Both the position numbers and the translations under genes were made by a program. This document shows, one piece after another, positions 31,634 through 37,676 of a stretch of 37,676 nucleotides of DNA. Under the pieces are notes generated by a model, which saw only the letters and a list, made by a program, of their open reading frames with translations, was not told where the DNA came from and made no database searches. Source of the DNA: a virus. Positions within the stretch are counted from its first letter, which is position 1, and the number at the start of each line of letters is the position of its first letter. The stretch covers positions 1-37,676 of IMG/VR virus record IMGVR_UViG_3300025138_000115, one strand, 5' to 3'.

Positions 31634-31647
31634 TTAACTAGGGTTAA
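31634..31647. promoter_or_regulatory. Operator O1
   Basis: A perfect TTAAC-TAGG-GTTAA palindrome. It covers the -10 and start region of the leftward SSB promoter. First of three tandem sites; 24 bases centre to centre from O2. Confidence 0.7.
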
Positions 31648-31671
31648 ATCACAGTAATTAACCAATGTCAA
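31643..31671 (-). promoter_or_regulatory. Leftward promoter of the SSB/nuclease operon
   Basis: On the minus strand: consensus TTGACA (31671-31666), 17 bases, TTTAAC (31648-31643) preceded by TGA (extended -10). Start near 31636; leader about 39 bases. O2 lies on its -35 and O1 on its -10/start. Confidence 0.6.
31658..31671. promoter_or_regulatory. Operator O2
   Basis: TTAAC-CAAT-GTCAA: one mismatch to the perfect palindrome. The mismatched half read on the minus strand is TTGAC, the -35 of the leftward promoter, so the deviation follows from the dual use. Confidence 0.65.
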
Positions 31672-31678
31672 ATATTAA

Positions 31679-31692
31679 TTGACTTCTGTTAA
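31679..31692. promoter_or_regulatory. Operator O3
   Basis: TTGAC-TTCT-GTTAA: one mismatch, and again the mismatched half is the -35 (TTGACT) of the rightward promoter. 21 bases centre to centre from O2, about two helical turns. Confidence 0.65.
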
Positions 31693-31713: not shown

Positions 31714-31923
31714 ATGGCTACAATATTAAATGAATTAATTGACGAGTTAGATGCTAAAGCTAAAAGAATTGAAAAAGAAATCATCAATTTAGATAGATCA
31801 TCTGTAATACCAGAGCATTACAATAAGGCAGAAAGCATTTTAAAATTAACAGATAAAGGTATTCAAACAGAAGAACAATGTAAATACTTATCTAAATTAA
31901 GGAATATGAATGAGCAATTATAA
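31714..31923 (+). CDS. Small coiled-coil protein, first rightward early gene (69 aa)
   Basis: MATILNELIDELDAKAKRIE..., strongly heptad-like over residues 5-30, then KLTDKGIQTEEQCKYLSKLR. No ribosome-binding site; it probably starts from a leaderless message. It overlaps the Cro-like gene by 14 bases. Family unknown; it could be a regulatory partner or a host-directed early protein. Confidence 0.65.
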   Translation: MATILNELIDELDAKAKRIEKEIINLDRSSVIPEHYNKAESILKLTDKGIQTEEQCKYLSKLRNMNEQL

Positions 31924-32119
31924 AATAGCACAAGATAGAAAAAAGGAAGTAGTCAACCAATACGGTGGTAAAAATTTAGCTAAAATGCTTGGTATATCTC
32001 ACCCTGCTGTATCTAAATGGAAAGTTGTACCTCCCTTTCGTGCATATCAGATTGCAAAACTTGGTGATTTTGATATAGAGTACATTAGACCAGATTTACA
32101 AATTGCGCCTTTAAGGTAG
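31910..32119 (+). CDS. Cro-like helix-turn-helix repressor (69 aa)
   Basis: MSNYKIAQDRKKEVVNQYGG..., with helix-turn-helix GKNLAKMLGISHPAVSKWK (residues 20-38) and a following VVPPFRAYQIAKL helix, as in Cro/YdaS-type regulators. The turn GIS and recognition helix SHPAVSKW are intact. AAGG lies 7 bases before the ATG. It is encoded immediately beside three tandem palindromes and is the only obvious DNA-binding regulator in the genome, so it is the likely ligand of the TTAAC-N4-GTTAA sites. No CI-like gene with a protease domain is present. Confidence 0.82.
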   Translation: MSNYKIAQDRKKEVVNQYGGKNLAKMLGISHPAVSKWKVVPPFRAYQIAKLGDFDIEYIRPDLQIAPLR

Positions 32120-32162: not shown

Positions 32163-32206
32163 TTGGGGTAGTTTTTTTTACTCTCTAGTTTAGTTTTCTA
32201 CCCCAA
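32163..32206. repeat. Long-loop inverted repeat downstream of cro
   Basis: Perfect 9-base arms TTGGGGTAG (32163-32171) and CTACCCCAA (32198-32206), loop 26 bases, beginning with T8. It could form an mRNA hairpin that reduces read-through from cro to the replication genes, or an origin structure. GC-rich arms in AT-rich DNA. Confidence 0.55.
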
Positions 32207-32233
32207 TTCCCCCTTATTTAACAACAAAACTGT

Positions 32234-32310
32234 ATAGCAATGCCATAGCAATGCCATACGTTTGCTATAGCAATGCTACAAGTCTGCTATACGTCTGCTA
32301 TCGTTTTGCT
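32234..32310 (+). repeat. Seven tandem 11-bp iterons (candidate replication origin)
   Basis: Units start at 32234, 32245, 32256, 32267, 32278, 32289 and 32300. Examples: ATAGCAATGCC (twice), ATAGCAATGCT, ATACGTCTGCT. All end TGCC or TGCT, and most start ATA or AT. The 11-base step keeps each unit on the same helix face, as in plasmid and lambda-type origins. Non-coding, and just upstream of the DUF1376, primase and helicase genes. Confidence 0.75.
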
Positions 32311-32327
32311 AATGGCAAAAGATAGCC

Positions 32328-32375
32328 CTTCATCTTCATCTTCACCTTCAACTTCACCTTCATCTTCAACTGCAC
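32328..32375 (+). repeat. Eight tandem 6-bp repeats CTTCAN beside the iterons
   Basis: CTTCAT, CTTCAT, CTTCAC, CTTCAA, CTTCAC, CTTCAT, CTTCAA, then degenerate CTGCAC. The strand bias (one strand pyrimidine-rich with A) is like the accessory arrays next to iterons that bind a second protein or help opening. Confidence 0.75.
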
Positions 32376-32389
32376 CCAAGATAGCCCAG

Positions 32390-32437
32390 TTGACAACCAT
32401 TTCTTTTTGGTCTAAAAATGAAATTAACTAAACTCAA
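32390..32437 (+). promoter_or_regulatory. Promoter of the replication genes with degenerate operator
   Basis: Consensus TTGACA (32390-32395), 17 bases, TAAAAA (32413-32418). At the expected start (about 32425) lies TTAAC-TAAA-CTCAA (32424-32437), 8 of 10 positions of the palindrome. A ribosome-binding site AAGGA follows before the ATG at 32450. Confidence 0.5.
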
Positions 32438-32449
32438 GGAATTATATAT

Positions 32450-32842
32450 ATGAGAAAATCAATCACGGATGAACAATCACCTGCGTTTCAGTTCTATGCG
32501 CAAGATTGGATCACAGACCCAAATAGAATGAAGTTATCTTTAGATGAACAAGGTGCATACATTTTATTGTTTTGTCATTGTTGGAGAAGTTTTAAAATAC
32601 TAAATGATTTAGAAATATTATCTAAAATGTGTGGATGTAGATTGCAAAAAATAGAAAAAATTTTTCCAAAAATAAAACATCTATTTACAGAAATTAAAGA
32701 GGATGGAATAAAATATCTTATTTGTAATCAAGCGGAAGAAGAAAGAAAAGAACAAGTAAAAAATAGAAAACGTAGATCGGTTGCAGGAAAACTTGGTGCT
32801 AAAATTAGATGGAAAGAAGAAAGTTTATCGGAGAGTAAATGA
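32450..32842 (+). CDS. DUF1376 (YdaU-like) replication protein
   Basis: A 130-residue protein with the DUF1376 signature PAFQFYAQDWITDPNRMKLS, LDEQGAYILLFCHCWR (about residues 11-46), followed by a winged-helix-like part and a basic tail (KNRKRRSVAGKLGAKIRWKEE). Proteins of this family are encoded in the replication modules of lambdoid and other phages and are thought to act in origin recognition. Its place directly after the iteron array fits an initiator that binds it. Start supported by AAGGA. Confidence 0.8.
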   Translation: MRKSITDEQSPAFQFYAQDWITDPNRMKLSLDEQGAYILLFCHCWRSFKILNDLEILSKMCGCRLQKIEKIFPKIKHLFTEIKEDGIKYLICNQAEEERKEQVKNRKRRSVAGKLGAKIRWKEESLSESK

Positions 32843-33045
32843 CAAAAATAATTATATTTATATTAGCTTGTTCAACTTGTGAAATAGAAAAAATAGAAAT
32901 ACTTAAACCGTTGTATAAAAGTTGTGGTGAATTTGGAAATGAAATTAGAGAAAAAACAACAACATATAAAAATGCATCTGATGATGTATGGCAAGGGAAT
33001 TATACAAAAGATGGTAAACTATTTGTAGGTTTTACTTGTGAATAG
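32839..33045 (+). CDS. Small exported protein with cysteines (68 aa)
   Basis: MTKIIIFILACSTCEIEKIE...: a hydrophobic leader ending LAC (lipobox-like, cysteine at 11), two more early and late cysteines (14, 29, 67) and a polar body. Either a lipoprotein or a disulphide-containing periplasmic protein. ATGA overlap with the DUF1376 gene. Its presence in the early operon suggests a host-envelope role such as superinfection exclusion; inference. Confidence 0.6.
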   Translation: MTKIIIFILACSTCEIEKIEILKPLYKSCGEFGNEIREKTTTYKNASDDVWQGNYTKDGKLFVGFTCE

Positions 33046-33856
33046 TTATAATGAAAATTCTCATTACGCCATGTTTATGGAGTATTTTGGCCAACATCAT
33101 TCGTTTCAAACATTTGATGACAAAGGTTTAAATAAAAGATTAATTAAACAATTACATGGTAGTCTTAAAATACATTTTAATGAATTATCTGAACTGAATA
33201 GTAAAGGTGCGGGTGTTTATTTTACAGTTAATGAAACTAATGGTCTTGGAAGAACCACTAAAAATATTATAAAAATTAGGTCTGTGTTTATAGATTTAGA
33301 TGGTACACCACTACCAGATAGTTTTGGTATTCCACCAAGTTTAATTGTAAATACTTCGCCTAAAAAATACCATGTATATTGGATAGTTAAAGATATGCCT
33401 TTAGAAACTTTTACTCTGTATCAGCAAGCATTGGCAGCTAAATTTAATTCTGATCCCGTTGTAAAAGATTTGCCTAGAATTATGCGAGTTGCAGGTTTTT
33501 ATCATCATAAGAAAAAACCATACCCTGTAAAAATATTACAATGTACAACAGCAGAGCCTTACACAATGAAAGAAATTAAAGAAGGCCTAGATTTAAAAAG
33601 GCCAGAACAAAAAACTATTAAAATGGATTATACTCCATCAACTTACAAAGGTAAGTACACGGGAACTTTAAGATATGGAATTAATGCAGGTGAACGTCAT
33701 GCACAATTAGTTAAAATTTTGGTAGCTATAAAAAAACGTGGTGAAACATTTGAGTATGCAAAAGGTGAGGCTATTGAGTTTGCTAATTCATGTGTACCAC
33801 CAGAAAATATAAATGAAGTTATGTTTCAATTAAAAGATATATGGAAAAGATATTAA
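33038..33856 (+). CDS. RepB-type DNA primase
   Basis: A 272-residue primase of the archaeo-eukaryotic superfamily (RepB_primase-like). The metal site is FIDLDG (Asp86, Asp88); the strand VNTSPKKYHVYWIV carries His112; and LPRIMRVAGFYHHK (145-158) is the typical third motif. The C-terminal GINAGERHAQLVKILVAIKK...FANSCVPP (about 213-257) matches a PriCT-like helical domain. It should synthesise primers at the nearby origin; host polymerase would extend them. It overlaps the upstream gene by 8 bases. Confidence 0.85.
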   Translation: MNSYNENSHYAMFMEYFGQHHSFQTFDDKGLNKRLIKQLHGSLKIHFNELSELNSKGAGVYFTVNETNGLGRTTKNIIKIRSVFIDLDGTPLPDSFGIPPSLIVNTSPKKYHVYWIVKDMPLETFTLYQQALAAKFNSDPVVKDLPRIMRVAGFYHHKKKPYPVKILQCTTAEPYTMKEIKEGLDLKRPEQKTIKMDYTPSTYKGKYTGTLRYGINAGERHAQLVKILVAIKKRGETFEYAKGEAIEFANSCVPPENINEVMFQLKDIWKRY

Positions 33857-33963
33857 TGAAATATATTGTAATATTTTTATTTTTAACAAGTTGTTTTGGT
33901 AGTGATTATGATTTTAACCCTACGACTACGATATTTAAACAAATAATAAAAGAAAAAAAATGA
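33856..33963 (+). CDS. Tiny lipoprotein (35 aa)
   Basis: MKYIVIFLFLTSCFGSDYDF..., then NPTTTIFKQIIKEKK. A short lysine start, hydrophobic core and lipobox LTSC (Cys13) followed by a 22-residue polar mature part. Coupled at both ends: TAATG with the primase stop and ATGA with the helicase start. Small phage lipoproteins of this size block receptors or DNA entry of competing phages, so superinfection exclusion is a reasonable guess. Confidence 0.65.
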   Translation: MKYIVIFLFLTSCFGSDYDFNPTTTIFKQIIKEKK

Positions 33964-35453
33964 ATTTATTAAGAGATTACCAAAAGAAAGCCATAGAAGA
34001 TATTAGGCAACATTTTAAGGAAGGCAAAAAGAAAATATTATTAGTTGCACCAACGGGTAGTGGTAAAACTGTTATAGCCTGCTCTATGATGGAAGCGTTA
34101 GTAAAAAATAATAGGTTTGGAATGTTTGTAGCGCATAGACGTGAACTTGTAATGCAATGTAGTAGAAAACTTGCAGACTTTGAAATAAAACATGGTGTTA
34201 TTATGGCAGGTAAAAGTGGTAGTGTTTATTCTGACGTACAAGTAGCAAGTGTTCAAACATTTGCAGCTAGAAAAGATAATGATGATTTTATAAAACCACA
34301 AGCAGATGTAATTATATTAGACGAAGCCCATAGAAGTACATCTAAAACATTTGAAGATTTAATTAAGGCCTATCCAGAGGCTTGGGTTATCGGTTTAACT
34401 GCAACGCCATGTAGAAATGATGGTCGTGGTCTTGGTAATATTTACGAAGAACTTGTCAATTGTGGTACGATTAAAGAACTAACTGCAAAAGGTTATTTAG
34501 TACCTAATAGAATAGTTGCACCATCAATTCCAGATTTACAAAATATTCGTATTATGGCAGGAGATTATGAAAAAAAAGAATTAGATAAAAGAATGAACAC
34601 ACCTAAACTTGTAGGAGATATTGTATCTCATTGGATGAAACACGGTGAGAATAGGCCAACAGTAGTATTTGGTTCATCTATTAAACATTCTAAATACATT
34701 GCTAATATCTTTAATCAAAATGGAATACCTGCAGGCCATATAGATGGAGAGATGAAAGAGATTGATAGGGAAAAAGTATTACAAGATTTAGATGATGATA
34801 AAATAAAAATAATATCTAACTGTATGGTATTGACAGAGGGTTGGGATAAACCAAAAATTTCATGTGTAATTATAGCTAGACCTACTAAATCTTATTCTAT
34901 GTATTTACAGATGGTAGGTAGAGCATTAAGGCCTGCTGAAAATAAAAAAGATACACTTATCATAGATCATTCTGGATGTGTATATGAGCATGGCTTTCCA
35001 GAAGATGCACCTAATTGGGAACTAACTTATTCTAAAATAAAAGAACGTGAGAAGAAAATAATAGAACCTATTGAAAAGCAACCATTTACTTGTGTAGAGT
35101 GTGATACGGTTTATAAACCTACAAAAGAACAACCAGAGTGTCCTAATTGTAGTTTTATGCCAACTAAAAAAGAACAAGCTATTTTAATTCAGCAAGGTAG
35201 ATTAATTGAACTACCTAAAATGAAACCAAATGTAGATGACAAGCAAAAATTTTATGCTGAATTGCTTTACTACTCTAAACAAAAAGGTTTCAAAGAGGGT
35301 TGGGCTAGTCATACTTTTAAAAGAAAGTTTGGCCATTTCCCTCATAGTAAAAAAGTATTTCCTATTGCTACAAGTAAGGAGGTAATGGGTTTTATACAGC
35401 ATTGTAATATAGCAAGAGCAAAATCATACAACATGAAGGAGTTATCAATATGA
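33960..35453 (+). CDS. SF2 DEAH-box helicase with C-terminal zinc ribbon
   Basis: A 497-residue helicase of the RecG/UvsW/RAD3-like SF2 type. N-terminal Q-like LLRDYQKKAIEDI; Walker A APTGSGKT (30-37); DEAH (121-124); LTATP (146-150); and motif VI YLQMVGRALRP in the second RecA domain. A C-terminal zinc ribbon C-x2-C...C-x2-C (CVECDTVYKPTKEQPECPNC, about 378-397) is followed by KFGHFP-type tail residues. It is probably the replicative or branch-migration helicase acting with the primase. Confidence 0.88.
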   Translation: MNLLRDYQKKAIEDIRQHFKEGKKKILLVAPTGSGKTVIACSMMEALVKNNRFGMFVAHRRELVMQCSRKLADFEIKHGVIMAGKSGSVYSDVQVASVQTFAARKDNDDFIKPQADVIILDEAHRSTSKTFEDLIKAYPEAWVIGLTATPCRNDGRGLGNIYEELVNCGTIKELTAKGYLVPNRIVAPSIPDLQNIRIMAGDYEKKELDKRMNTPKLVGDIVSHWMKHGENRPTVVFGSSIKHSKYIANIFNQNGIPAGHIDGEMKEIDREKVLQDLDDDKIKIISNCMVLTEGWDKPKISCVIIARPTKSYSMYLQMVGRALRPAENKKDTLIIDHSGCVYEHGFPEDAPNWELTYSKIKEREKKIIEPIEKQPFTCVECDTVYKPTKEQPECPNCSFMPTKKEQAILIQQGRLIELPKMKPNVDDKQKFYAELLYYSKQKGFKEGWASHTFKRKFGHFPHSKKVFPIATSKEVMGFIQHCNIARAKSYNMKELSI

Positions 35454-37070: not shown

Positions 37071-37181
37071 TTAAAATATAATTGAACCAAGTATAAAACC
37101 AATTACAAAACAAACCCATTCACGTCTGTAATGTAATTCTAATACTTTCCAATCACTTTTAGTTTTACCAAAAATAATCAT
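37071..37181 (-). CDS. Small membrane protein, right-end allele (36 aa)
   Basis: MIIFGKTKSDWKVLELHYRR..., then one hydrophobic helix to the end (GFILGSIIF). The complete copy of the gene cut at 1..107. The ATG overlaps the TAA of the 73-residue gene. Last gene of the leftward accessory block, facing the replication block. Confidence 0.65.
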   Translation of the reverse strand: MIIFGKTKSDWKVLELHYRREWVCFVIGFILGSIIF

Positions 37182-37182
37182 T
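37079..37182. repeat. Terminal direct repeat A (right copy)
   Basis: Identical to 5-108. It marks the point where the right end enters the same locus as the left end. Confidence 0.95.
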
Positions 37183-37402
37183 AATCCTCCTTTGCTCTTT
37201 TATTTAACCAATCATGTATATCAATTGATATAGTTTCTGGCAATTCAGTTATAGTTTCTGTGTACCACGTTTTATCTTCTCTTTCCCAAGTTACAACAAC
37301 TGCCCAACCTTCTGGTTTTTTACTCATTGCTTTTTTCTTTTCATGCATTTTAGCTTTGTTTTTACTTCTTACTAAATCCAATGCGTCAAAGTCTATTGCC
37401 AT
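37181..37402 (-). CDS. Variable-locus protein X, right allele (73 aa)
   Basis: It shares the first 18 residues with the left allele (84 aa), then diverges completely: MSKKPEGWAVVVTWEREDKT..., ending DIHDWLNKRAKED. The tail has a WAVVV strand followed by TWYTETITELPE, a compact beta-type domain. TAATG junctions at both ends. Function unknown. The constant N-terminus with an exchanged C-terminus suggests domain swapping. Confidence 0.7.
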   Translation of the reverse strand: MAIDFDALDLVRSKNKAKMHEKKKAMSKKPEGWAVVVTWEREDKTWYTETITELPETISIDIHDWLNKRAKED

Positions 37403-37584
37403 TATTTTTCCCCTTCTATTGTTACAACTGTTTTTTCACTAACTAAACTTTCTTTGTCATAAGAAACAAAATTTAAAACATCATCTGGATGATCACAACA
37501 ACAATCACAAAGAGGATGTCTATAAACCTCCGTTACAGTTATTAATGCAAATTCATTTTCTAAACTTATTTTTTTTTTAGCCAT
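37402..37584 (-). CDS. Cysteine-cluster protein Y, only in the right allele (60 aa)
   Basis: MAKKKISLENEFALITVTEV..., with YRHPLCDCCCDHPDDVLNFV. The CDCCCDH cluster gives four cysteines and a flanking histidine in eight residues, plausible for metal binding. There is no counterpart between repeats A and B on the left. TAATG junctions with both neighbours. Function unknown. Confidence 0.65.
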   Translation of the reverse strand: MAKKKISLENEFALITVTEVYRHPLCDCCCDHPDDVLNFVSYDKESLVSEKTVVTIEGEK

Positions 37585-37676
37585 TATTTACCTCCTTTAT
37601 GTTCTTTATAGTGATTGTGTAAAATTAAAAATCCACCACCTCCAATAATAGTGCCAAATACAAATTCAATTGTAAA
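37578..37676. repeat. Terminal direct repeat B (right copy)
   Basis: Identical to 364-462 and running to the window edge, so the true homology probably continues. Confidence 0.95.
37584..37676 (-). CDS. Small hydrophobic membrane protein, partial copy
   Basis: The C-terminal 30 residues or so of the 50-residue membrane protein also encoded at 370..522, cut by the right edge. The sequence is identical in the shared part. Confidence 0.7.
   Translation of the reverse strand, partial: FTIEFVFGTIIGGGGFLILHNHYKEHKGGK

Follow-up and report, generated by a model that had tools for sequence, protein, structure and literature searches.

In phage lambda the iterons lie within the O gene, and the origin of the IncQ plasmid RSF1010 is characterized by 20-bp repeats. 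Iteron plasmids such as RK2, F and R6K place their initiator repeats beside a second repeat set in the unwinding element. The plasmid Rep proteins also bind one strand of this element (PMC10797057), and DnaA likewise binds one strand of the unwinding element (PMC8287927). The DnaA-trio/BUS of bacterial oriC requires, by definition, three or more NAN trinucleotides in a row next to a DnaA box (PMC8287927). The RepA_N origins include that of the Vibrio phage satellite PLE, whose initiator is PLE RepA (structure 4ro3; PMC7145576). The origins of SAR11 phages are apparently undescribed in the open-access literature searched, in which no paper pairing pelagiphage with iteron was found.

Genomic setting of the arrays

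The window, meaning the whole stretch of DNA analysed, is a virus record of 37,676 bases with its best similarity to Pelagibacter phages, viruses of the ocean bacterium SAR11. The nearest cultured relative over the array region is EXVC032P Baldr, the sole isolate with a related DUF1376 or Cro protein in the phage collection searched. The end of the record repeats parts of its start at 37075–37191 (117 bp, 97%), 37331–37407 (77 bp, 92%) and 37578–37676 (99 bp, 100%), which probably means a circular or terminally redundant record whose overlap contains a strain variant. Pfam and phrog matches place the arrays between a P22_Cro-type gene and a set encoding DUF1376, a RepB-type primase and an SF2 helicase, in that order:

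2–9.3 kb: terminase (2.0–4.5 kb), portal-like adaptor and capsid genes
31714–31923: gene for a 69-aa protein upstream of cro, with a weak HHH_9 match below the cut-off
31910–32119, + strand: cro-like repressor gene (P22_Cro; Pfam PF14549, E 3e-12)
32450–32842, + strand: DUF1376 gene (PF07120), predicted winged-helix protein and candidate initiator
33038–33856, + strand: RepB-type (AEP) primase (PF16793, E 4.7e-11)
33960–35453, + strand: SF2 DNA helicase (ResIII/Helicase_C; phrog_16)

A gene for DNA polymerase A was not found in the phage, nor was any other polymerase family among the ORFs scanned. The 69-aa gene is present in part of the family only. In some relatives (L165 and L189) the helicase gene has the opposite orientation and is located some 3 kb downstream; cro, array and DUF1376 are still together. 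The region around the arrays contains the following elements:

31634–31692, no strand: operator-like sites TTAACTAGGGTTAA (31634), TTAACCAATGTCAA (31658) and TTGACTTCTGTTAA (31679) in the divergent promoter region
32163–32206, no strand: hairpin separating cro from the 11-mers, with a 9-bp stem and a T-rich loop of 26 nt
32233–32309, + strand: seven tandem, semi-palindromic 11-bp repeats of the YATAGCAWTGC type, candidate initiator-binding iterons
32273–32431: 52-aa ORF crossing the array region
32304–32320, no strand: junction palindrome TTTTGC-TAATG-GCAAAA, of the AATCGC..GCGATT type in some relatives
32321–32327, no strand: short C-rich spacer GATAGCC directly before the hexamers
32328–32375, + strand: eight CTNCAH hexamers, mostly seven or eight copies across the family
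32377–32383, + strand: CAAGATA box closing the hexamer array, 1–2 bases after it
32390–32419, + strand: sigma-70-like promoter (TTGACA ... AAAAAT) for the DUF1376/primase operon
32424–32437, no strand: site TTAACTAAACTCAA, resembling the repressor operator, immediately after the DUF1376 promoter

The 11-bp repeats

A first-pass annotation had proposed seven 11-mers from position 32234. All seven are present, in the order TATAGCAATGC CATAGCAATGC CATACGTTTGC TATAGCAATGC TACAAGTCTGC TATACGTCTGC TATCGTTTTGC, and the array starts one base earlier, at 32233. Their periodicity exceeds that of every shuffled sequence: the lag-11 self-identity of the 77-bp stretch is 46/66, the top value in the whole window, compared with a best of 39 in 100 whole-window dinucleotide shuffles and of 37 in 2000 shuffles of the intergenic region, none of which attained 46. 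In relatives, 48 of 50 neighbouring pairs of motif copies are spaced at 11 bp and the other two at 22 bp. Lag 11 is the strongest period among 36 representatives; weaker signals at 5–6, 16–17 and 27–28 arise because GC steps recur every half unit. Uniformly spaced tandem direct repeats near an initiator gene, the hallmark of an iteron-type theta origin, are thus found at this locus, if DUF1376 is, as we infer, the initiator itself.

The possibility that the 11-mers are Cro operators was considered and rejected. A candidate operator, TTRAC-N4-GTYAA, is kept across the family, with up to three copies left of cro and usually one at the DUF1376 promoter. A scan of representatives with TTRACNNNNGTYAA, allowing at most one mismatch, gave 91 matches in the divergent regions and 37 at the DUF1376 promoter, and none within either array. 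This motif is likely to be the operator of the phage repressor (Cro). With both arrays free of it in these representatives, the motif of the 11-mers is not that of a Cro site.

The hexamer array

The second array had been described as eight CTTCAN hexamers. The number eight stands, but the motif does not: the last unit reads CTGCAC, and CTNCAN describes the array instead. No other place in the window has three CTNCAN units in succession, and none is expected in shuffles; the hexamer pattern itself has six overlapping matches in the window, where 0 are expected. Across relatives, 82 distinct arrays with 576 units were tabulated, one of these arrays being a chance match in unrelated sequence. 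Seven hexamers are present in 63 of the 82 arrays and eight in 14. The skeleton is close to invariant (C1 in 575 units, T2 in 576, C4 in 576 and A5 in 573), so that these four positions deviate in 4 of 2,304 cells. All four bases occur at position 3; position 6 takes C, A or T, and only three of the 576 units have G there. The array opens with CTTCA after an ATCCC, TAGCC, ATGCC or TAGCT spacer and closes with one or two bases followed by CAAGATA. The hexamers are the most constrained part of the element, and the label 'accessory sites', which they had been given, is probably too weak.

The skeleton has a 3-nt phase (C-T-N, C-A-H) and the top strand of the array is almost free of G, a combination that would suit recognition as a single strand. 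A C-rich, nearly G-free top strand downstream of cro also brings to mind transcription termination, as Rho favours C-rich, G-poor RNA and lambda tR1 lies between cro and the replication genes. The composition fits, and the hexamers might act in RNA as a Rho-utilisation site, the counterpart of tR1. This is improbable: an exact 6-nt skeleton is not needed by Rho, near-invariance of C1, T2, C4 and A5 with positions 3 and 6 freely A is the opposite of pyrimidine-C selection, and the 11-mers and their rigid 13-bp link to the hexamers would be left unexplained. An Rfam scan for known RNA families returned non-significant matches only.

In the Baldr annotation, CDS WDQ27616.1 starts at an ATG and runs right through the array, as though the hexamers were low-complexity coding sequence for a Ser/Pro/Thr-rich peptide. 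This idea is scarcely credible and was rejected, as the reading frame is not conserved: the ATG-opened frame through the array differs among relatives, five of which are without any, and the variable hexamer positions would alter amino acids in the annotated frame. The earlier view of the arrays as non-coding is therefore upheld. WDQ27616.1 corresponds to 32360–32731 of OQ414636.1 (L310), and its true start is probably a downstream ATG. The array of Baldr lies at about 32.3–32.45 kb.

A rigid unit and a separate promoter

Of 79 distinct arrays, 78 have their last GC dinucleotide exactly 13 bp ahead of the hexamers, and the intervening spacer has C at position −2 in 79/79 and at −1 in 76/79. 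On the other side, the TTGAC element in relatives is found anywhere from 1 to 39 bp beyond CAAGATA, without helical phase; the promoter consensus scan by itself performs no better than chance. The fixed 13 bp, set against the floating promoter distance, indicates that 11-mers, junction palindrome and hexamers form one rigid unit from which the promoter is separate.

This arrangement bears directly on whether the arrays serve transcription control of the DUF1376/primase operon, with an activator or nucleoid-type protein on the repeats regulating the downstream promoter. Repeat arrays ahead of promoters are common, and a TTGACA-type element follows the arrays in relatives. We nevertheless regard such a role as unlikely, given the unphased and variable distance between hexamers and promoter as opposed to the fixed spacing within the unit. 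Furthermore, the repressor operators are a different motif located elsewhere, and no other conserved regulator gene was seen at the locus, the 69-aa gene being not found in many relatives.

Stem-loops similar to the hairpin between cro and the 11-mers occur in most representatives, with stems of 8–14 bp and mostly T/C-rich loops, sometimes followed by a T run. As the hairpin recurs with changed stem sequences and is absent in several representatives, it is probably a terminator or an accessory element.

Conservation across relatives

To gather relatives, viral contigs were searched twice by protein and twice by DNA pattern. Had close relatives been without repeats here, this would have spoken against the first-pass reading; each of the 84 DUF1376 loci whose upstream sequence spans 250 b or more has the hexamer array. 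At least four perfect CTNCAN units stand in a row in 79 of these, and in the remaining five a unit of the array is altered. Conversely, the DNA-pattern search alone leads, apart from one chance match, to the cro–array–DUF1376 neighbourhood in all groups, and a looser pattern recovered two more complete members (L245 and L266). Array and gene thus predict each other. CAAGATA formed part of one of the DNA search patterns, and it is also found upstream of DUF1376 in the loci found by protein.

Outside the family, a protein search of GTDB genomes found no prophage relatives. The hexamer plus CAAGATA pattern gave ten matches in bacterial genomes, each overlapped by an ORF of more than 300 codons, and the six-hexamer runs in other viral contigs were, among the matches listed, mostly simple repeats inside long ORFs; both sets were set aside.

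The position of the unit is likewise constant: wherever the DUF1376 gene of a family member is in view, the unit precedes it. This constancy is at odds with a packaging or recombination site (pac/cos-like) used by terminase or another enzyme, a function that comes to mind as the terminase sites of some phages contain short repeats bound by winged-helix proteins. The terminase genes of the window, at 2.0–4.5 kb, are also about 7 kb off round the circle, and a packaging role appears quite improbable.

DUF1376 as candidate initiator

The PF07120 match of the window protein scores 34.5 bits against a curated cut-off of 30.1, and the profile matches all 41 family members. RepA_N is absent from the families matched by these 41 sequences, which therefore do not qualify as RepA_N by sequence, and a PDB sequence search with the DUF1376 profile gave no meaningful match. 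AlphaFold2, run on the 41-member alignment, predicts a winged helix and, C-terminal to it, a long basic helix, at a mean pLDDT of 82. Fold matches include the RepA_N domains 4pql, 4pt7, 5kbj and 4pta, Vibrio 4ro3 and DnaD 2v79, with Z scores of 5.8–7.0; as unrelated winged helices score 6.7, the likeness is suggestive, not conclusive.

A second line of evidence is provided by co-divergence. In pairwise comparisons, the divergence of the 11-mer region is most strongly correlated with that of DUF1376 (r 0.39–0.57). When Cro, the primase and the phrog_862 protein are controlled for, the partial correlation with DUF1376 is 0.22–0.37 across three redundancy levels (permutation p 0.001–0.016), bearing in mind that partial Mantel tests may overstate significance among related sequences. 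The corresponding p values are 0.5–0.8 for Cro and 0.05–0.14 for the primase, and DUF1376 alone retains a clear partial correlation. Related genomes are not independent, and the co-divergence therefore amounts to support, not proof. Some relatives with DUF1376 proteins 86–91% identical differ by 0.44–0.53 in their 11-mers, so that recognition by DUF1376 would have to be loose. Together, fold prediction and co-divergence suggest that DUF1376 may be the 11-mer binder. By title and abstract, none of the four papers found on DUF1376 and replication ties it to an origin.

A putative replication origin

Two arrays in a rigid layout beside the gene of a predicted DNA-binding replication protein, recurring in more than 80 related viral sequences, probably constitute a replication origin. 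In favour of this, the unit heads a primase and helicase module in a phage without a detected DNA polymerase A. With moderate confidence, the 150-bp unit at 32233–32383 is interpreted as the phage origin: DUF1376 would occupy the 11-mers, and the hexamers would be a strand-specific opening or loading site. The repeats with their conservation and rigid spacing, the separate operator motif and the gene context are observed, whereas initiation within 32233–32383 and the role of the hexamers are inferences.

The DUF1376 winged-helix initiator would bind the semi-palindromic 11-mers in helical phase, as double-stranded DNA. The resulting complex would then act on the adjoining, rigidly spaced CTNCAH array, which may be a strand-specific element for duplex opening or for loading of the phage primase and helicase (or the host replisome). 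Transcription of the replication operon would start at the separate promoter, controlled by the phage repressor via its own operator.

No separate AT-rich unwinding element was identified at the origin candidate. GC skew was considered as an origin sign and dropped. Plain cumulative skew in the window tracks gene direction. Raw third-position skew of the forward-strand genes in the window runs from +0.57 right of the array down to −0.32; this gradient vanished at fourfold-degenerate sites in 13 genomes, where no reversal occurs at the array, and was discarded as origin evidence.

Comparison with known origins

Iteron origins as such are already known, and an origin with a hexamer array of this kind was not found described in the collections and open-access literature searched. 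The phage resembles the lambda-type origin in having repeats and initiator just downstream of cro in an early operon. In contrast to lambda, its repeats lie outside the initiator gene and its helicase and primase genes are different. RSF1010 shares a sequence-related RepB-type primase (the phage primase has sequence matches to 3h25 and 3h20, solved chains of Replication protein B), separate helicase and initiator genes and a hairpin nearby; the phage differs by its SF2 helicase, by DUF1376 as candidate initiator and by repeats of 11 rather than 20 bp, and its hairpin is not present in all relatives.

The RepA_N origins (pSK41, pTZ2162 and Vibrio PLE) are comparable in their winged-helix initiator, whose fold the DUF1376 prediction suggestively resembles, and, according to the sections of PMC7145576 that deal with them, in their short semi-palindromic direct repeats at the origin. 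DUF1376, however, forms a Pfam family of its own, is only some 130 aa long and lacks the RepA_N-type C-terminal domain, and a hexamer array is not described in those sections (PMC7145576). The origins of RK2, F and R6K share the juxtaposition of initiator repeats with a second repeat set; theirs are AT-rich 13-mers, whereas the second array of the phage is 6-nt, G-poor and of invariant skeleton. As Rep proteins and DnaA bind one strand, the phage arrangement would work like theirs.

The element is a precise, testable origin candidate in the cultured phage Baldr, and about 80 natural sequence variants are available for finding the bases read by the initiator. It also concerns a protein that many phages encode and that Pfam still names as of unknown function.

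The resemblance to the BUS of bacterial oriC extends to double-strand sites, a short C/G-rich spacer and a polar array with 3-nt phase (PMC8287927). The phage array falls outside the DnaA-trio definition: the complementary strand reads 3'-GAN-GTD-5', so that on the candidate strand every second trinucleotide has a middle T, not A. DnaA boxes were not identified at the phage unit, and an AAA+ initiator gene is absent at the locus. A tentative and somewhat doubtful extension of the origin reading would have a small non-AAA+ initiator, or its primase partner, seeded by the 11-mers and assembling on the CTNCAH array, whose 3-nt phase (C-T-N / C-A-H) would offer a strand-specific platform; such a system would be an independently arisen viral counterpart of DnaA-box plus DnaA-trio. 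If strand-specific loading at the hexamers were confirmed, the DnaA-trio idea would have a viral parallel, built from different parts.
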